NCBI RefSeq assembly: GCF_902810435.1
Contig: NZ_LR778174.1
Coordinates: forward strand, 2,030,501 to 2,094,500
From: Veillonella parvula
GTDB lineage: Bacteria > Bacillota > Negativicutes > Veillonellales > Veillonellaceae
Direction: 5' to 3'
Length of the DNA stretch: 64,000 bases
Shown here: positions 1,614-9,999 of the stretch, one piece after another
Layout of the letters: every line of letters starts with the position of its first letter
Position numbering within the stretch: position 1 is the stretch's first letter
Made by a program: the position numbers and the translations under genes
Notes under the pieces: model-generated
Database searches by the model: none
The model's input: the letters and a program-made list of their open reading frames with translations, nothing else
Told to the model about the DNA's origin: nothing

Positions 1614-2444
1614 TCATAAGCGTTCAGCTACATCGATTCTATGTAATAGTTCTTTCGCTAATTCTTGGGCTGTTTTGAATTCCTCATTTGAAAGCACCAT
1701 AAGTACAAAGCTATCGGTTCCGATGTCCATGCCTGCTAACGTATAGTTTTCCCATTTAGAATTAAGATCCGCACACCAGTCCATAATACATTGGTCTTCA
1801 TCTAATGCTGCTGTATCAATAATTAGACCTTCACTAGTATCTAAAGACTTGTTACGTATTAACTTCTGTACATAATAAATAAAATCCTCTAGTTCACATT
1901 TACAGCTTAGCTCTACAGCATATCCTTTAGAGGCTAGTTTCTCATAGAGGTTCCACCAGCTATCTTCTAATTCTTCCATGGAGCGCAACTTAGCCTTGGT
2001 CATAAACGATTTAGCTTGTTTAGCATCGCCTAGCAACAACGTTGCTAACTCTGTAAATGTCAGTTTCATCTGATCGATATCTAGATACGCTACTTCTACA
2101 CATAAACTACAATCAGGTACTCTGCGTTTTTTCACAAAGGCCCGCATCATCTTCACTGCATCAGGATAACTTACATCAGCCATACGATACGTCTTACCAT
2201 CTATGTCTAAGAATATATCTACTGCATCTGGTGTTTTTCCTACACGCGCTTTCATCGCAGTGCAACCATCGATGGCATGAGGTGGATACAATTCTATATA
2301 CATGAAAAATCCATCATGCATAGCCTTTAGGGTATTATCTATTCCTACTATATTAAAACCATTTCGATTATAATCAGGGCACTTCAAACGCCATTCTTCG
2401 TAATCATCAAATAGTTTTTCTTGAATCCAATTGTAAATGCTCAT
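1614..2444 (-). CDS. Hypothetical protein, DUF6630-like C-terminal half (276 aa)
   Basis: A soluble, acidic, two-part protein. The C-terminal 140 residues (from about LLGDAKQAKSF to the end) with the features D-W-C-A-D-L-N and D-I-G-T-D-S-F-V-L resemble DUF6630 proteins; I hold this only tentatively. The start at 2444 follows GTGAG. It begins 38 bp after the csn2 stop, on the same strand, with no hairpin between, so read-through from the cas operon is likely. No nuclease, HTH or NTPase motif is visible. It could be a chance neighbour of the CRISPR locus or an associated accessory gene. Confidence 0.6.
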   Translation of the reverse strand: MSIYNWIQEKLFDDYEEWRLKCPDYNRNGFNIVGIDNTLKAMHDGFFMYIELYPPHAIDGCTAMKARVGKTPDAVDIFLDIDGKTYRMADVSYPDAVKMMRAFVKKRRVPDCSLCVEVAYLDIDQMKLTFTELATLLLGDAKQAKSFMTKAKLRSMEELEDSWWNLYEKLASKGYAVELSCKCELEDFIYYVQKLIRNKSLDTSEGLIIDTAALDEDQCIMDWCADLNSKWENYTLAGMDIGTDSFVLMVLSNEEFKTAQELAKELLHRIDVAERL

Positions 2445-2482
2445 ATATACTCACTTTATTTACTATATTTTATAATTCCAGC

Positions 2483-3391
2483 TTATTTACAAAAAAATAA
2501 ATCACTAATTTCTTTATACTCTGTTTCAAATAGACTACGATTAAACAAACTTTGTATAAATTGGCGCTCTTTCTCCAGTAAATTTATAGATCCACTATCC
2601 TCTAGCAATAAAACTTCAATTTCATCGTAATCATCCATTCCCCATATTTGATTATCTTTAACTATATGATAGCATAAGGGCTTCTCAAATATATTAGTAA
2701 TAGCACTAGATTGCGTATAAACTATAACATTATCAATATTTGAACATTTTTTATTAAGATAGTCTAACAAAGAGTGAAATTCTTCTGTTGATAAGCCTTG
2801 TTCAGGTAAATCTAATAGGAGTAGCTTCTTCTTTCCTATATCTAGTTCAGCAAACAAATCTACCAGCATATATTTCAAATCATACTGCGATCGTTCATCA
2901 AACGTACCATATATTTCCATATCATTAGATAGTACATCTATAATCTTACTAAAACTCCAAAAATCATTCATATTACTCTCGCATATTAAATTATAACGAG
3001 ATAACAATTCATTAATTGGCAAAAGTATTACAGAATTCAACTGATTAAAGCATTTTTCCCGTTCAGATATTGAAACTTCTTTATAGATTTTCTCAGTTAT
3101 CTTACCCAATAAACTCTTTTTTGCAATCTTAAAAAGCTCTGTTGAATCTACTCTTGAAGGAATATATAAAATTTCAAACTCATCATCTCTACATACACTA
3201 TTATTAAGATTCAATGTATTAAATGGGTATTGTTGGGAGAATCTCCTTTTATCAAAATATCGTTCTATAAAATCAAATATAACCGGCATAGTCCTAAAAT
3301 CATCTTGTGGCACTACAATTGTTATAGCCTGTAAATTAATATGGACTGGTTCTAAAAGTCTATATCCTGATAATACCAATTCACCATTCAT
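2483..3391 (-). CDS. csn2: CRISPR-associated protein Csn2, long variant (302 aa)
   Basis: It occupies the fourth position of a cas9-cas1-cas2-csn2 operon, the hallmark of type II-A. The product has the degenerate P-loop-ATPase look of Csn2: a beta-rich N-terminus and a strand KKLLLLDLP followed by EQGLSTEEF, then VIVYTQS, resembling a vestigial Walker B region. At 302 aa it is longer than the common Csn2 of about 220 aa and closer to the long Csn2 forms known from some streptococci. Csn2 forms a DNA-end-binding ring that acts with Cas1-Cas2 and Cas9 in spacer acquisition. It starts 9 bp after cas2. Family assignment rests on context plus fold-like motifs, so the subfamily is uncertain. Confidence 0.8.
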   Translation of the reverse strand: MNGELVLSGYRLLEPVHINLQAITIVVPQDDFRTMPVIFDFIERYFDKRRFSQQYPFNTLNLNNSVCRDDEFEILYIPSRVDSTELFKIAKKSLLGKITEKIYKEVSISEREKCFNQLNSVILLPINELLSRYNLICESNMNDFWSFSKIIDVLSNDMEIYGTFDERSQYDLKYMLVDLFAELDIGKKKLLLLDLPEQGLSTEEFHSLLDYLNKKCSNIDNVIVYTQSSAITNIFEKPLCYHIVKDNQIWGMDDYDEIEVLLLEDSGSINLLEKERQFIQSLFNRSLFETEYKEISDLFFCK

Positions 3392-3400
3392 AGACGCCTC

Positions 3401-3745
3401 CTAGAAAATGATAGTTTTATCAATCGTTAACTTCTCTTCGATAATTTGTTTCTTTCCAGTTAATAGTTTCATACCTTGATACTGCTTCTCTGTAACTTGC
3501 AAAACATATACAGCTCCATCTGGCGGTAAATAGCGCTTAATATATTCAATATGAGACTTTATACTATCCCGATTAGGCATAATCTTACAATAAATAGAAT
3601 ACTGAATCATAAAATACCCTTGCCGTATCAAAAACTTCCTAAACTGAGTGTAATGACGAACTGCAACAGTATCATCCATAGGTAAATCAAACATTATTAA
3701 TACTCTCACCATTCTGTACCTATTCATTTCACACACCAATATCAT
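3401..3745 (-). CDS. cas2: CRISPR-associated endonuclease Cas2 (up to 114 aa)
   Basis: The classic Cas2 N-terminus MVRVLIMFDLP with its conserved Asp is preceded here by eleven extra residues. The 3745 start overlaps the cas1 stop as ATGA, which favours translational coupling; a start at the internal MVRVLIMFD is possible and would give about the usual length. The rest (YSIYCKIMPNRDS) fits the ferredoxin-like Cas2 fold. Cas2 dimerises and joins two Cas1 dimers to form the spacer integrase. It lies between cas1 and csn2 in a tight operon. Confidence 0.9.
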   Translation of the reverse strand: MILVCEMNRYRMVRVLIMFDLPMDDTVAVRHYTQFRKFLIRQGYFMIQYSIYCKIMPNRDSIKSHIEYIKRYLPPDGAVYVLQVTEKQYQGMKLLTGKKQIIEEKLTIDKTIIF

Positions 3746-4638
3746 ATATCTAATAATGGTAAATCTAATACTTCATTATCATCAGTCATACATCTAACGA
3801 GACTATCTGCAAATCTATTCATTGAATCTGCTATTGAGTAAGATATATTTTGATGACGTACTGTACGCTCAGAAAGCATAGTAATTAAATTAAGTTTTAT
3901 ATCTCTTGAAAACAAAACTTCAGGCACATAAATACAAGAATAGACCCAATCATCTATGATGGGCCTATATATTTCCATGCAATCATCAACGAGATTAAAG
4001 TGATTATATATATTATGATGTTTTATCCCTATTGATAATATAAGTCCTTTAGCAGCTAATGCTCTTGCCATAAGGGCTCTAATAATAGAGTATCCATAAT
4101 TCAAAGCATTATTGATAGGATCCCCCTCTTCTCTATCACGTATAAAATCAATACCAAATAAAGCTTTAAAATAAACTTTTGCAGCAATACCTTCATGATT
4201 TTCCGTATCAAACGGCTGAATTGTATCTCTTAAAGATTCCATTATCTCAATTGTATCTAATGACAATGAATAATGATCTAAAACAAACATTTGATTATTT
4301 ATCTTACGTTCAATAATTGCTTTCCACAAATCACCTGGTCTAGATGGATTCATATTCAGTTGTATTTCTTGATTTTTAAATGTTACATAATTTCCTGCTA
4401 TAGGATTCATAACAACAGACGGTAATCCATTCTTTTCACAAATGATTACACAAATTTGATAGCGACTCATCTTACATAATAGTTGCGTTGTAACATTTAA
4501 TTTATAGTTATTAAAAATAACTATACTAATATCTTGTAAGGGGACTAAATAGTCCCCTTCAAGCATTTTTATTTTTAAGTTGTCTAAATGTAATGAAACT
4601 TGCTGACTCTGTTCAATAATAATTGTTCGCCAACCCAT
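3742..4638 (-). CDS. cas1: CRISPR-associated integrase Cas1 (298 aa)
   Basis: It starts MGWRTIII and has a type II Cas1 organisation: an N-terminal beta domain followed by a helical catalytic domain. The likely metal ligands are the Glu in NHEGIAAKVYFKALFG, the His in IGIKHHN and the Asp/Glu in VDDCMEIYRP. I chose 4638 because GGGAG lies 8 nt upstream. An earlier in-frame ATG at 4659 overlaps the cas9 stop (TAATG) and would add seven residues. Cas1 catalyses the two transesterifications that insert new spacers beside the leader. Confidence 0.92.
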   Translation of the reverse strand: MGWRTIIIEQSQQVSLHLDNLKIKMLEGDYLVPLQDISIVIFNNYKLNVTTQLLCKMSRYQICVIICEKNGLPSVVMNPIAGNYVTFKNQEIQLNMNPSRPGDLWKAIIERKINNQMFVLDHYSLSLDTIEIMESLRDTIQPFDTENHEGIAAKVYFKALFGIDFIRDREEGDPINNALNYGYSIIRALMARALAAKGLILSIGIKHHNIYNHFNLVDDCMEIYRPIIDDWVYSCIYVPEVLFSRDIKLNLITMLSERTVRHQNISYSIADSMNRFADSLVRCMTDDNEVLDLPLLDI

Positions 4639-4658
4639 AATGTGCACTCCCTGCAACA

Positions 4659-7600
4659 TTAAATCGTAACATCAAATTCTAATTTTTCATCTGTAACTTT
4701 ATATTTATTACCTAATACATCTATATTATATCTAGTTAAGTTCTTAATAGAGGTTTTTATTGATAATCGCTCTTGTTTATTTGTAGGTCTATCTATAAAA
4801 GAAATTTCTACTTTATGTTCTTTCTCACTATTCATACATTTGAATATACAACTTAAAACTTCACCTTTATATTCATAAGATATGAAATCTCCTCTATAAA
4901 GAGAGGTAACAAACTTAGCATCCTCCGAGATATTCTGATTTTTTTTAGCCTTATAATACTGGCTTTGATTAATTAAATACTTCCCATTTATAAACTGAAC
5001 CATATCATATGGTACATTTAATACTAAATAATTTTTTCCTTCTTGATAGATATCTGTACGCAAACTCTTTATCTTCAAAAATACTGATTTATTATTCCCC
5101 TGCTGTTTTGTATTAACACGATGAGAACCTAACTGCTTTTCTCGGAATTTAACCGATTCAATAATTGGTCCATTTCCTTTTTTTGAATACTTACGAATTG
5201 GTCCATGATCTTCTTTATAGGCTGCAAATGGGTTAGATTCTTCCACATATTGTTCTACAATCTTGAGAAAAATCTCAAAAGTTTTATAATCATGATGATA
5301 CATCAACAACTTATCAGGAGACTCTAAAATCATTTTTTTTAGTTTACTGCCAGAATTACCAGTTCCAGTATTATAAATATCGTTATATTTAGTGATAATA
5401 TAGGTTACTTCTTTATTATCTTCAACAAAGCTTCGAGTCGCTTTTATCTGTTGATCATATAAAGCTCTATTAGGTTTACGATCCACCTTATGAGAATATA
5501 ACGGTTCTATACTTTCAATACGTTTTAAGAACTGAATATAGTTAGATACATTCTCTGATTTATCAAATAATTCTTGTTCTAATACCTCGCCCGTTTCAGA
5601 ATTTATAATATTGCCATCTACCTCTACAATAGAATCCTTATTGTTCAAACTTTCAGAAAAGGCACCTATTTTCGAGAAAAATTTCATCAGTTTCGTATTA
5701 GCAAAACCAGCAATAATCATAGCATCTTGCGCATGATGGGCATACGTCTCTTCTCTATTTTTTGATAGATACGCTTTTTTTCTAAAATAACTTGTTGCAG
5801 AACCGTTTATAACTTTAACCTTGGTATTTATATTATGGTAATCAAAAAAGGATTTTAATAAATTGTAGGTTTCACGAGATGCATAACGTGTATCGACCAA
5901 ATTGCGATCAATAAATCCTTTCATATCTTCAACTGGATTTCCAAGATATAGTAAATTTCTCTTTTTAGCATTACTAAAATTCAAGCTTTTAGTAACATAT
6001 TCTTTGAATCTTTCAAAGGTTATTTTTGCTTTGCCACTACTGAAATATTGGAATGGTGACCGTTGTCCTTTCGCTTGATTTTCTCCTTGATAGACAAGCA
6101 CTTTATTAGACTGAGCATCACTTAGAGATATAGATAATGGAATAATATGATCAACTTCTAAAAGGCCAGCTTTAAACACATCAGATAACTCTATAGGCGC
6201 TAAAGAATATGCACATTTAAAATCCTGCTCTAACAATAAATTAATACGTTCAAACTCTGCACTTGTAAGTTTCCTGTTTTTAACAAGTTCCATAATTTTA
6301 TAACGTTTTTCTTCATTGGCCTTCTGAATTTTCTTAATCAGATCTTTCTTCTCTTGACTATTCTTTTCTCGTGCTAATTCAACTACTACATCACTAAATT
6401 CAGTATCATCACCATTTTGGGTTTTAAGATATTTACGCAATGCATTAAATACCTTAATGGTTTCATTAATAGAGCGTTTAACAACAGGTGATACAATCCA
6501 ATCAGATAAATTAGCACTTAACTGATAATTTTGAGAAAATTTATGATTATATGGTTTTATGCCTGCCTCCGTAAATAATTCCATTTGATTCTTACTAGTT
6601 TTCAATAAATCATCTAGAATTAAATTAATAGCCTTAAATGATAAAGAATGATATGTAGTAAATCCCCCCGATTTTGCAATTTCTTTGGCTAAACTAGTAG
6701 ATAAATTTAAATCATCTACTAATTTTCTTTCACGCACATCTATACTTTTTTCTTTAGTTAGAATCTCAGATATATCATCTACTAACAGTTTTTTACCTTC
6801 AATTGCATCTTCTTCGTTTACAGACTTTGCGATTTTTAATAACTCATTGTATCCTTCAAATTTTGTAAAAATTGGTTTTTCCGACTTATCTATTCTAAAA
6901 CCAAAAATATCTTCCTTTTTAGCACTGCATACTTTTGCAATAGCAGGAATCGTTACCGATTTACCTTTATTTACATATTCACTAATCAGCTCTTGTTTCT
7001 GAACTTCAGTTATCTTCACACCTTGAATCGTTAAATTATTTAGATCATTTAACAAATTAAATAAACATGCACTATAGCTCCATTTAGGTGCTCTTAATTC
7101 ATCAGGAAAATACGTACACGTACCACGCATTTTATCAATCAAATTAATCTTAATGACATTGCCACTTTCATCTAATTGGTAACTCCCATAAGGTGTGGGG
7201 CTTTTATAACTACCAGGTCCCTCATAATATTCACGTTTAGAATCATATATACATAAAACCTCATCCATTATCCCTTTTAATTTTGGATAAAATGATGATT
7301 GAACTTCAAGAAGTTTAATTAATTCACTACGATATGATCCATGAGTAAATTTATTTTCAATGCCTCGTACTTTTCCCGTAGTATTCAACTTTTCTAATTG
7401 AACATGGCAAGGATATATTCCATCTTTAAGCTTATTCTCATTAGTTCGAATAATATCTGCTGAACTCTGGTTACTTCCGTCCTCAGTCGCAAGATCCTCT
7501 GGACTTAAATAAAATATACCTCTATGTTTAGCCAATTGAATGATTGCAGCAATCAATTCATCAGGCGAAAGCTTATTACTAAGTCCTCTAACTCTAATTT

Positions 7601-7853
7601 CATAGAGATTTGTATAAAATTGATCTCCACTCACACCTAATGCACTCGACAAGAGTTCTTTTAGTCGATCCAATCTATGACGGCTCCGCCTCATACTTCT
7701 ACGACTACTTCTGAACCCTCTGCGTGCTACATTCTCTTCTGCCGTACCCTCACGAAATAGTCTTACCCCACTAATTAGGACATTATAATTTTCATCAATT
7801 ATTGCATAACCAACAGAAGCAACCCCGATATCTAATCCTAGTATATATCCCAT
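4659..7853 (-). CDS. cas9: CRISPR-associated endonuclease Cas9, compact (1064 aa)
   Basis: RNA-guided DNA endonuclease. Visible in order: RuvC-I with D8 (LGLDIGVASVG), the Arg-rich bridge helix at about 44-62 (RRGFRSSRRSMRRSRHR), RuvC-II with E492 (VVELAREKNS), the HNH centre around D568-H569 (EVDHIIPLS) and N592, and RuvC-III with H706-H707...D710 (HHAQDAM). All catalytic residues are present. The length matches compact enzymes such as S. aureus Cas9 (1053 aa). The repeat and tracrRNA found here also resemble that group (repeat 5' half GTTTTAGTACTCTG, anti-repeat CAGAATCTACTAAAA). It is the first gene of the cas operon and overlaps cas1 only if the early cas1 start is used. The PAM cannot be read from this window. 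Confidence 0.97.
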   Translation of the reverse strand: MGYILGLDIGVASVGYAIIDENYNVLISGVRLFREGTAEENVARRGFRSSRRSMRRSRHRLDRLKELLSSALGVSGDQFYTNLYEIRVRGLSNKLSPDELIAAIIQLAKHRGIFYLSPEDLATEDGSNQSSADIIRTNENKLKDGIYPCHVQLEKLNTTGKVRGIENKFTHGSYRSELIKLLEVQSSFYPKLKGIMDEVLCIYDSKREYYEGPGSYKSPTPYGSYQLDESGNVIKINLIDKMRGTCTYFPDELRAPKWSYSACLFNLLNDLNNLTIQGVKITEVQKQELISEYVNKGKSVTIPAIAKVCSAKKEDIFGFRIDKSEKPIFTKFEGYNELLKIAKSVNEEDAIEGKKLLVDDISEILTKEKSIDVRERKLVDDLNLSTSLAKEIAKSGGFTTYHSLSFKAINLILDDLLKTSKNQMELFTEAGIKPYNHKFSQNYQLSANLSDWIVSPVVKRSINETIKVFNALRKYLKTQNGDDTEFSDVVVELAREKNSQEKKDLIKKIQKANEEKRYKIMELVKNRKLTSAEFERINLLLEQDFKCAYSLAPIELSDVFKAGLLEVDHIIPLSISLSDAQSNKVLVYQGENQAKGQRSPFQYFSSGKAKITFERFKEYVTKSLNFSNAKKRNLLYLGNPVEDMKGFIDRNLVDTRYASRETYNLLKSFFDYHNINTKVKVINGSATSYFRKKAYLSKNREETYAHHAQDAMIIAGFANTKLMKFFSKIGAFSESLNNKDSIVEVDGNIINSETGEVLEQELFDKSENVSNYIQFLKRIESIEPLYSHKVDRKPNRALYDQQIKATRSFVEDNKEVTYIITKYNDIYNTGTGNSGSKLKKMILESPDKLLMYHHDYKTFEIFLKIVEQYVEESNPFAAYKEDHGPIRKYSKKGNGPIIESVKFREKQLGSHRVNTKQQGNNKSVFLKIKSLRTDIYQEGKNYLVLNVPYDMVQFINGKYLINQSQYYKAKKNQNISEDAKFVTSLYRGDFISYEYKGEVLSCIFKCMNSEKEHKVEISFIDRPTNKQERLSIKTSIKNLTRYNIDVLGNKYKVTDEKLEFDVTI

Positions 7854-7935
7854 ATATACCCTCCCCTAAAAATTATTAATCCTATTTAATACATAAAATT
7901 ATAATAATTAGAAAATTATTCTCTTCTATTATTCT

Positions 7936-9415
7936 AAATTTATCATAAGCAACGATCACAAAGTACTAAACCTCTGTGTACATGGACGTTCTTAATGGTA
8001 TTTTTTAGCGAAAAATTACAGAGTACTAAAACAAAAAACCACCTACCTAGCTCTGTGCTAAATTTTATCATAGCGAAAAATTACAGAGTACTAAAACTAG
8101 GTGATGCGGGATTAATAGTGGTCAATAGTTTTATCATAGCGAAAAATTACAGAGTACTAAAACTTGCATGAACGCCCTATTGATGAGTTGTTTGTTTTAT
8201 CATAGCGAAAAATTACAGAGTACTAAAACATTCAGTATCAATGGATGGCGAGATTGGGTGTTTTATCATAGCGAAAAATTACAGAGTACTAAAACTACCA
8301 GGTGGCGATAAAGCGATATTCGGTAGTTTTATCATAGCGAAAAATTACAGAGTACTAAAACGTCTTCATCATTATCAATGAATGCCATTTCGTTTTATCA
8401 TAGCGAAAAATTACAGAGTACTAAAACTACGAAAGTAATGGTTGGAAAGTTGGCAAGGTTTTATCATAGCAAAAATTACAGAGTACTAAAACGACTCAGC
8501 CAGACCCTAACACTGCTTCCTAGTTTTATCATAGCGAAAAATTACAGAGTACTAAAACTCATGCAAAAATATCTAAACTCATCATATGGTTTTATCATAG
8601 CGAAAAATTACAGAGTACTAAAACACAACAGGTAGAATACCAATGATTTCTTCTGTTTTATCATAGCGAAAAATTACAGAGTACTAAAACGCACTCACTG
8701 AATCTCTTAATGGGGTGACAGTTTTATCATAGCGAAAAATTACAGAGTACTAAAACCATTCATCAAAATAATAAACCGTTGGCATAGTTTTATCATAGCG
8801 AAAAATTACAGAGTACTAAAACTACCGGTAACTTTTTTCTTCCACGATTTAGTTTTATCATAGCGAAAAATTACAGAGTACTAAAACATATGTATTCCCC
8901 TTGAATTGGATATTTTCGTTTTATCATAGCGAAAAATTACAGAGTACTAAAACGACTAAGGAAGTCGGCTATAGCATGTTACCGTTTTATCATAGCGAAA
9001 AATTACAGAGTACTAAAACTACATTGACTACATTCACATCAACAGATACGTTTTATCATAGCGAAAAATTACAGAGTACTAAAACGGTAAACGTAAAATT
9101 AGGAGTATAGCCTTGGTTTTATCATAGCGAAAAATTACAGAGTACTAAAACACCAAGAACAACATTCAAGATTTTTGAGTTGTTTTATCATAGCGAAAAA
9201 TTACAGAGTACTAAAACGATGTTTGCCATGGGTTTGCCTGCTGTGGTGTTTTATCATAGCGAAAAATTACAGAGTACTAAAACGTTTACTGGTCTTTTTA
9301 TTTTTGCAAAACGGTTTTATCATAGCGAAAAATTACAGAGTACTAAAACTGCGTTCATAGCATTCATATCAACTGTAGCGTTTTATCATAGCGAAAAATT
9401 ACAGAGTACTAAAAC
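7936..9415 (-). CRISPR. CRISPR array, 36-bp repeats, 30-nt spacers
   Basis: There are 21 good repeats starting at 8062, 8128, 8194, 8260, 8326, 8392, 8458, 8523, 8589, 8655, 8721, 8787, 8852, 8918, 8984, 9050, 9116, 9182, 9248, 9314 and 9380. The period is 66 bp, with spacers of 29-30 nt. The repeat at 8458 lacks one base. Two decayed repeats lie at 7997-8032 and 7936-7971, and the repeat at 8062 has its first base changed, so the low-coordinate end is the old trailer end. The crRNA strand is minus: read that way the repeat begins GTTTTAGTACTCTG and pairs with the tracrRNA. New spacers should enter at 9415, next to the sequence TTGAG that type II-A integrases use as leader anchor. Confidence 0.98.
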
Positions 9416-9470
9416 CTCAACAACGAAGTTAAGCACTTTTGTAGCCTTTCGCTATAATAAATCAATAAAC
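9416..9470 (-). promoter_or_regulatory. Short CRISPR leader with second anti-repeat-like element
   Basis: Only 55 bp separate the first repeat from the tracrRNA terminator. On the minus strand the leader ends in TTGTTGAG, matching the TTGAG-type leader-anchoring end of type II-A leaders. Positions 9433-9463 hold a degenerate inverted copy of the repeat (plus strand GTAGCCTTTCGCTATAATAA), sharing CCTTTCGCTAT with the true tracrRNA anti-repeat. In a minus-strand transcript it could pair in cis with the first repeat. The plus strand of this element also reads TATAAT at 9453-9458. No good -35 is visible for a leader promoter on the minus strand. Confidence 0.6.
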
Positions 9471-9643
9471 AAAAAGAGCACAGATCATAAGACCCGTGCT
9501 CAAAATTTCACACAAAAAACATTAGTAATATGTACTACTAACTCAATTTACATATACTATTGTTAATAACTACTTAAAAGTAGTGATTTCGACATAAAGT
9601 CTTATTTTAGTAGATTCTGTAACCTTTCGCTATGGTAAAATCT
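9471..9643 (-). ncRNA. tracrRNA
   Basis: The minus strand carries an anti-repeat at 9605-9641: CATAGCGAAAGG, then TTACAGAATCTACTAAAA. It pairs with the array repeat across both halves and leaves an internal bulge (CT opposite AATC). It is followed by the nexus hairpin GAC-TTTAT-GTC (9591-9601), a second hairpin at 9569-9584 (ACTACTT/AAGTAGT) and two terminator candidates. The first is a 6-bp stem TTAGTA/TACTAA with T6 at about 9516-9543; the second is the stronger GAGCAC/GTGCTC stem (9476-9501) with T5. The RNA would thus be about 125 or 173 nt. The order matches the S. aureus-type tracrRNA. The 5' end follows a near-perfect promoter. Confidence 0.92.
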
Positions 9644-9649
9644 AATTAC

Positions 9650-9678
9650 ATAATATATCAGCATTACTTATATGTCAA
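9650..9678 (-). promoter_or_regulatory. tracrRNA promoter
   Basis: On the minus strand a perfect TTGACA (9673-9678) is separated by 17 bp from TATTAT (9650-9655). This puts the start near 9643, just before the anti-repeat, so only a short-form tracrRNA is expected from it. Confidence 0.9.
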
Positions 9679-9784
9679 GCTTTTCTAATTTTTATTCATC
9701 AATCAGTTTTAATTTTTACTAAATAACCATAATTACTCAACTATTATCTTGATAGAAAGATAGTTTTAATATGATTAAAATAGG

Positions 9785-9811
9785 AAAAGGACACAATAAA
9801 TTGTGTCCTTT
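9785..9811 (-). terminator. Terminator of the tRNA-Arg / single-guide transcript
   Basis: On the minus strand AAAGGACACAAT pairs with ATTGTGTCCTTT and is followed by T residues at 9785-9788. It closes the tRNA-guide transcription unit and stands where the 3' terminal hairpin of a Cas9 scaffold belongs. Confidence 0.85.
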
Positions 9812-9881
9812 GATTTCGGCATAAGGCCCTACCTTAATAGATTCTCACGAGTATTAAGGCGAAACTGCAGCTCTATCCTTC
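9785..9881 (-). ncRNA. Natural single-guide RNA candidate, fused to tRNA-Arg
   Basis: Immediately after the encoded CCA of tRNA-Arg come 21 nt (9881-9861), a length typical of a compact-Cas9 guide, then a Cas9 scaffold in one strand. It consists of G plus CCTTAATA (9852-9859), bulge CT, C-GTGA-G (a GNRA tetraloop, 9845-9848), bulge AATC (9840-9843), TATTAAGG (9832-9839), the nexus GGC-CTTAT-GCC (9818-9828), GAAATCA, and a 12-bp terminator stem. The crRNA:tracrRNA duplex made from the array repeat and the tracrRNA has the same 8-bp stem (TTTTAGTA/TACTAAAA), the same CT/AATC bulge, a nexus GAC-TTTAT-GTC and the same GAAATCA. Three stem pairs and one nexus pair differ, and each change is matched on the partner strand. 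This supports selection for the Cas9-binding shape in cis. Natural single guides are known (the long tracrRNA of S. pyogenes), but not, to my knowledge, in a tRNA-linked form. A decayed second tracrRNA is the main alternative. Confidence 0.75.
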
Positions 9882-9958
9882 TGGTGCGCCTAGAGGGAAT
9901 CGAACCCCCAACCTACAGTTTAGGAAACTGACGCTCTCTCCGGTTGAGCTATAGACGC
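9882..9958 (-). tRNA. tRNA-Arg (anticodon CCU)
   Basis: A complete cloverleaf on the minus strand. The acceptor is GCGTCTA/TAGGCGC with discriminator A and encoded CCA (9882-9884). The D-arm is GCTC/GAGC, and the anticodon loop TTCCTAA gives CCT between T33 and A37. The T-arm contains GGTTCGATTCC. The anticodon stem has a T-T mismatch at 27-43. The CCA is followed directly by the guide-like 21 nt, so maturation of the tRNA 3' end would define the 5' end of the downstream RNA. Confidence 0.96.
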
Positions 9959-9969
9959 ATGTATACTTT

Positions 9970-9999
9970 ATTATATCGTTTTTAATAAAGTATACGCAA
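9970..9999 (-). promoter_or_regulatory. Promoter of the tRNA-Arg / single-guide unit
   Basis: On the minus strand TTGCGT (9994-9999) lies 18 bp before TATAAT (9970-9975), with the predicted start a few bases ahead of the tRNA 5' end at 9958. The -10 sits within an inverted repeat (GTATACTTTATTA... TAATAAAGTATAC) between the phosphatase stop and the tRNA. Confidence 0.65.

Follow-up and report, generated by a model that had tools for sequence, protein, structure and literature searches.

The transcript of a tRNA-Arg(CCU) gene in Veillonella parvula is predicted to end in a guide RNA for the local Cas9, and the predicted target of this guide is another allele of the tRNA gene to which it is fused. 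The element lies beside a type II-A CRISPR-Cas locus in the window, as we call the whole 64,000-nucleotide stretch of DNA that was analysed (Table 1), and is best explained as a predicted natural single-guide RNA forming the 3′ part of the tRNA transcript. We consider it probable, at roughly 60%, that this RNA aims Cas9 at a widespread allele of the tRNA gene and that the cassette carries an allele the guide does not match, so that loss of the cassette would be punished and its copying-in favoured. The original prediction had proposed a natural single guide for the local Cas9, kept as a structure behind the tRNA, and the scaffold comparison and covariance results below support that proposal. 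The target had been missed and is a new result; the earlier interpretation as a whole is partly supported.

Table 1. Features of the tRNA-guide unit and the adjoining CRISPR-Cas locus, in window positions
Feature	Position	Strand	Remarks
Csn2-like protein (type II-A marker)	2483..3391	-	PADLOC Csn2, E 2.5e-7
Cas2	3401..3745	-	
Cas1 (type II)	3742..4659	-	
Cas9, 1064 aa, SaCas9-like	4659..7853	-	nuclease motifs conserved
CRISPR array	7936..9415	-	36-nt repeats, degenerate last repeat
Canonical tracrRNA	9566..9640	-	ends approximate; promoter-like TTGACA/TATTAT at 9678-9650
Terminator-like stem, 11 bp	9786..9811	-	end of the tRNA-guide unit
Predicted single-guide scaffold	9811..9860	-	9-bp lower stem (first pair G-U), CT/AATC bulge, GTGA tetraloop, nexus, GAAATCA tail
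Predicted guide, 21 nt	9861..9881	-	19/21 identical to nt 15-35 of tRNA-Arg(CCU) alleles A and C
tRNA-Arg(CCU), allele B	9882..9958	-	poor guide match: 6 mismatches, two at PAM-proximal positions 8-9
Possible tRNA promoter	9970..9999	-	TTGCGT, 18 nt, TATAAT; read by eye
Whole unit (tRNA allele B, guide, tracrRNA, array, cas genes)	2453..9958	-	adjoins DUF6630 gene

A predicted single-guide RNA behind tRNA-Arg(CCU)

The CCA of tRNA-Arg(CCU) is followed without a gap by the guide GAAGGATAGAGCTGCAGTTTC (9881-9861) and then by the scaffold, GCCTTAATA-CTC-GTGA-GAATC-TATTAAGGT-AG-GGC-CTTAT-GCC-GAAATCA (9860-9811). This succession of tRNA, 21 nt, scaffold and terminator, from which the original prediction had started, was confirmed at its positions. 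Since a terminator scan found no terminator-like site between the tRNA and the scaffold, the two are likely to be transcribed as one RNA. The possible tRNA promoter was absent from the output of a consensus promoter scan; GATATAATAAAGTATAC or near variants lie upstream of the tRNA in most of the relatives compared. The original prediction had tRNA 3′-end processing free a guide of exactly 21 nt; since exonucleases often trim tRNAs whose CCA is encoded, a guide 5′ end at the CCA is uncertain. The first pair of the anticodon stem, also read by eye, is mismatched (T-T, C-T or C-C) in the tRNA of the window (9882-9958) and in the other B alleles, unlike in allele A.

The repeat of the local array starts with GTTTTAGTACTC, and the local tracrRNA contains GAATCTACTAAAATAAGACTTTATGTCGAAATCA. 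Compared with the duplex of these two RNAs, whose tetraloop was set to GAAA, the scaffold differs in 12 of 50 columns, two of which belong to the tetraloop. The remaining differences fall on two unpaired columns outside the tetraloop (18 of 20 such columns being identical) and on eight paired columns. These eight make up four compensated pairs: 4 of 13 pairs are altered on both sides, with none changed on one side and none broken, which bears out, column by column, the earlier claim of four base pairs changed together. Repeat-like and anti-repeat-like strands, nexus and tail are thus joined in one molecule that matches the local dual RNA.

A covariance model was built from four repeat-tracrRNA chimeras (this locus, V. 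magna twice, and a metagenome-assembled genome (MAG) of the Anaeroplasmataceae), the element itself being left out. It found the element in the window at E 4.6e-9. In the complete genome, where the best 150 of 1355 candidates were scored, the element ranked first with 50.1 bits (E 1.5e-7), above the local tracrRNA with 36.8 bits; a covariance-model search of Veillonella genomes had been suggested along with the original prediction. Scores above 30 bits, among the best 150 candidates per genome, were obtained in 2 of 28 genomes of the family, this one and V. magna, and all other matches had E 0.1 or worse. The same two genomes are those with this kind of Cas9 (E 1e-30). When the element was aligned with the four chimeras, every cell of the five sequences was paired and the covariation score was reached by none of 500 shuffles, a result that is supportive only, four of the five being joined from repeat and tracrRNA.

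Scaffold and terminator fold into the proposed structure with a z-score of -4.4. With the guide attached, the minimum-energy fold retains the lower stem and the terminator, yet part of the guide pairs with the nexus (-27.2 kcal/mol with the guide versus -26.1 kcal/mol without it).

Relatives that have the tRNA but not this cas9 do not keep the element: the scaffold scored above chance in 0 of 13 congeners, none of which has this Cas9. Three of them carry a different, longer Cas9, with open frames of 1354-1432 aa (G007, G010 and G009; loci L034, L035 and L036).

The local Cas9 and its relatives

The family assignment of Cas9 is clear from its sequence. Its best matches among solved structures are 7enr (E 9e-171) and 5axw, which we take to be S. 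aureus Cas9, and the RuvC and HNH motifs are retained. The gene order cas9-cas1-cas2-csn2, which defines type II-A, is present, the Csn2 assignment being weak and coming from one library; neither Pfam nor NCBIfam gave a match for the Csn2-like protein. Of the 21 array spacers listed, 20 are 30 nt long and one is 29 nt. Before the first repeat, at 9436-9454, lies an anti-repeat-like stretch, TAGCGAAAGGCTACAAAAG, that resembles the 5′ part of the tracrRNA.

Relatives of this Cas9 in the genome collection comprise proteins from V. magna (51%) and the Anaeroplasmataceae MAG (40%), a 65-residue piece (58%) and 11 distant matches. Among 398 genomes of the phylum searched at E 1e-60, this genome and two Cas9 matches of 31-32% were recovered, and no others. 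A pattern search of viral contigs returned no relative of this Cas9 and no match to the scaffold pattern; four distant Cas9 matches (23-26%) were found in the phage collection.

The nearest comparison is V. magna, which has no such element behind its tRNA-Arg(CCU), so that the tRNA-guide arrangement is a single known case. Its tRNA-Arg(CCU) is A-like, with three mismatches to the guide, and a related Cas9 therefore occurs there without an altered tRNA. No tRNA lies within 20 kb around the V. magna cas9, and a related tRNA-Cas9 arrangement in this species was rejected; a tRNA is also absent from the 17-kb L081 locus. Upstream of its cas9, on the minus strand (L065, 12174-12125), V. magna has a second, truncated tracrRNA-like element (GGATCTACTAAAATAAGACAATATGTCGAGAACA) that scores 36.3 bits with a covariance model in which it was itself used, together with a lone GTTTTAGTA-like stretch; these elements are possibly a regulatory guide.

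The predicted target is another allele of the fused tRNA

When 14 genomes of the genus were searched for the guide at up to three mismatches, the guide itself and a single place in each of 7 of the 13 congeners were the only matches, those in the congeners all with two mismatches; a reversed-pattern control gave 0 matches. All seven places are nt 15-35 of tRNA-Arg(CCU), and the match ends at the first base of the scaffold. Six of the seven congeners have allele A (GTAGGATAGAGCAGCAGTTTC), in which one of the two mismatches sits 9 nt from the PAM, and the seventh, G011, has allele C (GGAGGAAAGAGCTGCAGTTTC). The adjacent allele B is a linked, diverged copy, whose six mismatches, two of them in the seed, suggest that it would resist the guide. 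As for the six other congeners, four have allele B or a variant of it (six mismatches), G007 shows four mismatches, and G001, assembled in about 240 contigs, yielded only a CCG-anticodon tRNA-Arg (seven mismatches). By BLAST, intact tRNA-Arg(CCU) is single in 13 of the 14 genomes, and none was found in the fragmented G001. Because guide and tRNA are of the same sense, they cannot pair with each other, which leaves DNA as the predicted target.

The search was extended to 380 genomes of the class with at most two mismatches. Sixteen genomes match, namely this one and 15 others (reversed control, one hit); 14 of the 15 matches lie in tRNA-Arg(CCU) genes, all within the same family (seven congeners and seven other genomes), and the last, in G465, is a site without a tRNA. 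No exact match (21/21) was found in these 380 genomes outside the guide itself. Allele A, present in three genera of the family, is probably the ancestral one. The exact allele-B arm is present in 5 of the 380 genomes, all of this genus; as allele B or a close variant is found in four congeners without this Cas9, it is not exclusive to the cassette.

A PAM was derived from the viral matches of the array. Spacer 1 has an exact match in one IMG/VR record (flank TTAACA); for spacer 15 there are two records, at 4-5 mismatches (GTAGTC), and for spacer 21 one at a single mismatch (GTCGCT) and another at seven (GTAGGC). These three best-matched spacers have T at +2 and R at +4 in common, a thin basis for the inferred PAM. 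The flank of the target tRNA, CTAAAC, fits this pattern; those of the guide's own gene (GCCTTA) and of the array spacers (GTTTTA) do not, which is what self-avoidance would need. Weaker protospacers disagree with it: spacer 18, with seven mismatches, is flanked by ACCGCT and spacer 6, with 5-7 mismatches, by AAAGTC or GATCCG. In the same 458 kb of DNA, reversed spacers gave 0 matches at up to seven mismatches versus six for the real spacers. Parts of spacers 8 and 17 had no match in viral contigs, and the whole array, run against the phage collection, gave matches only at E about 2 or weaker, to phages of other hosts (best 40 of 101 records).

The spot behind tRNA-Arg(CCU) holds variable defence genes

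The 20 kb downstream of the tRNA were compared in 12 of the 13 relatives (all but G001). In eight of these 12 flanks, chromosomal similarity returns at the DUF6630 gene (window 1614-2444), which places the insertion at about 2453-9881; on the upstream side, that of a phosphatase gene, similarity extends over about 0.9-1.25 kb in six relatives. No tRNA remnant was found at the far end of the cassette in this genome. The open reading frames of at least 100 aa between the DUF6630 gene and the tRNA are cas9, cas1, cas2, the gene of the Csn2-like protein, and two TTG-start frames inside cas9 and the array.

Other defence systems occupy the spot in relatives (L051, L052, L053, L060). It holds a type I restriction-modification system in G005, an MmeI-type enzyme in G002 and G013, and in G008 an McrBC pair with a gene matching the candidate defence family PDC-S46; 4 of the 12 relatives have a restriction system there. 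The candidate family PDC-S01 is matched by an AAA_14/DUF4143 gene that was searched in G002 and looks similar by eye in G013, G004 and G010. The spot of G012 has a YadA-type adhesin, with similar starts in G005, G006 and G011.

The alleles of the tRNA are discordant with its surroundings. G008, which has allele A, and G009, which has allele B, group as sisters when a tree is built from up to 2.4 kb of neighbouring chromosomal DNA, and their identity is 92.7% in the 400 nt 5′ of the tRNA and 79.2% in the tRNA. Because they are alike in the flank and unlike in the tRNA, the tRNA allele appears to be exchanged.

In G002, a displaced 3′ half of allele A starts at nt 33 of the tRNA (L052, 15465-15509). 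It lies 4.4 kb from the present allele-B-like tRNA, with the MmeI-type restriction gene between them, and its start coincides exactly with the predicted Cas9 cut (between nt 32 and 33). Integrases, too, usually cross over at nt 33, where the anticodon loop has its edge, and G002 lacks this Cas9; for both reasons the half was not counted as evidence for Cas9 cutting.

The same remnant, which is preceded by an allele-B-like tRNA and the MmeI-type restriction gene, favours the reading that the guide provides immunity against mobile elements that use tRNA-Arg(CCU), cutting their att sites or phage-borne copies and keeping the spot free of other elements. The anticodon loops of tRNAs are common integrase sites, which is also in its favour. 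The protospacer, however, lies in the 5′ half of the tRNA, a part that is usually missing from attP sequences, and no integrase was present among 10 hotspot proteins searched by family. Moreover, 20 nt of the guide occur exactly in 0 viral contigs, and a 34-nt query of guide plus flank returned four records from the phage collection, three Arthrobacter phages matched in tRNA-Arg (88%) and one unannotated contig (82%). A phage-targeting guide was rejected on these matches, and we regard the mobile-element reading as a whole as unlikely.

Other explanations of the element

The element could also have no function and be what is left of a recombination that joined a tRNA fragment to an old guide scaffold, since disused. 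Fragments of tRNAs are common next to tRNA genes, the element is found in one genome, and it has two mismatches to every target found. Against this stand a matching block that is exactly as long as a guide and stops where the scaffold begins, a fitting PAM beside the target, and four compensated scaffold pairs with none broken; in our assessment a leftover is improbable.

Natural single guides are known to repress (PMC11417352), and Cas9 could bind with this guide without cutting, repressing its own tRNA or another gene of the genome. In 104 kb of sequence from this genome, though, no other site pairs over at least nine PAM-proximal nt, and the adjacent tRNA pairs over seven. Genome-wide, three other sites have one mismatch to the 13-nt PAM-proximal part; over the 21 nt they have five, seven and eight mismatches, and all three carry G at PAM position +2. 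Two of them (five and eight mismatches in all) pair over 10 PAM-proximal nt, so that binding is conceivable if the PAM is looser than inferred. A regulatory role of this kind is, on this evidence, very unlikely. The small RNA scaRNA of Francisella novicida similarly lies near a type II locus and redirects Cas9, but it acts together with a tracrRNA partner and represses lipoprotein genes, as described in the cited section of PMC8730458.

Autoregulation of the cas genes was rejected and has hardly any probability left: although known for the natural single guide of S. pyogenes (PMC11417352), it would have to rest here on a longest PAM-proximal match of 4 nt in the 157 nt upstream of cas9. That S. 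pyogenes RNA, tracr-L (Workman 2021, via PMC11417352), likewise combines guide and scaffold for a type II-A Cas9 in one RNA encoded at the CRISPR locus. It is a long form of the tracrRNA and represses through 11 matching nt at the cas promoter, according to the part of PMC11417352 cited here. The Veillonella element, unlike tracr-L, is a separate gene behind a tRNA, apart from the canonical tracrRNA, and matches a tRNA allele in 19 of 21 nt.

Proposed mechanism

The reading we prefer, in which the single guide aims Cas9 at the widespread tRNA allele, would work as follows. The tRNA transcript would yield the guide, which would direct Cas9 to allele A or C of the same tRNA gene, and CTAAAC would serve as the PAM; the diverged allele B, to which the cassette is linked, would remain unmatched. 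If a cell exchanged the spot for an allele-A neighbour by DNA uptake, natural competence having been reported for V. parvula (PMC5397411), the Cas9 still present would cut the tRNA gene. Where a cassette came in beside an allele-A copy, that copy would in turn be cut, and the cassette could serve as the template for its repair. One transcript would supply both the guide and the tRNA that resists it, and the cassette would defend its own place at a contested tRNA hotspot and may spread.

The scaffold, the guide-target match, the mismatch to the adjacent allele, the compatibility of the PAM, the discordant tRNA alleles and the variable defence content were computed; from them we infer that the RNA is expressed and processed, that Cas9 cleaves the target, that the tRNA is essential and that inheritance is affected. 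Counted against the proposal are the occurrence in one genome, the two mismatches to alleles A and C, the presence of allele B elsewhere, the competing fold of guide and nexus, a PAM based on three spacers, the misfit of the weak protospacers, and V. magna without the element.

A stronger version would make the cassette a bacterial cleave-and-rescue element, in which Cas9 and the tRNA-borne guide destroy an essential tRNA gene wherever it has the widespread allele, the guide's own transcript provides a diverged copy of that tRNA that cannot be cut, and the cassette holds and invades the hotspot as a selfish toxin-antidote and homing system. We put this version forward tentatively, as a possibility that falls short of a probable one.

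Relation to known systems

Cleave-and-Rescue (ClvR) elements are synthetic gene drives in which Cas9 and a guide against an essential gene are combined with a resistant copy. The cassette shares with them the Cas9, a guide against a gene and a linked copy predicted to be resistant; ClvR is man-made and eukaryotic, whereas the present arrangement is natural and bacterial, with a presumed essentiality of the tRNA. Polycistronic tRNA-gRNA constructs resemble it in their tRNA-guide fusion transcript, but they are man-made as well and used in eukaryotes.

In CRISPR-associated transposons of types I-F and V-K, delocalized crRNAs encoded outside the array match a tRNA gene at the element's own place and, as the cited sections of PMC11656645 and PMC8730458 describe, direct transposition. 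Here too a guide outside the array matches, with two mismatches, a gene at its own place, namely the other allele of the adjacent tRNA. Unlike those transposons, the cassette has a Cas9 with intact nuclease motifs and carries a diverged tRNA allele, and neither a transposase nor Tn7-like transposition genes were seen among the open reading frames of at least 100 aa between the DUF6630 gene and the tRNA. CreTA addiction modules, like the proposed mechanism, use a derived CRISPR RNA to make the host depend on its cas locus (PMC8730458, PMC9458426); in them CreA represses a toxin RNA through Cascade, in the account of PMC8730458, whereas here the proposed harm would be the cutting of a tRNA gene by Cas9. 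In the open-licence literature searched, we found no report of a natural guide fused to a tRNA, nor of a Cas9 guide against a tRNA at its own locus.

The minimal claim would be that of a natural single guide joined to a tRNA. If the proposed mechanism works, nature would have made of Cas9, an immune tool, a guard or a drive for the locus that encodes it, much as engineers have done with cleave-and-rescue gene drives and tRNA-guide fusions. The cassette would also be a case, open to testing, in which a CRISPR system becomes an addiction module by cutting DNA, and it would explain in concrete terms why tRNA alleles and defence cassettes would be swapped together.
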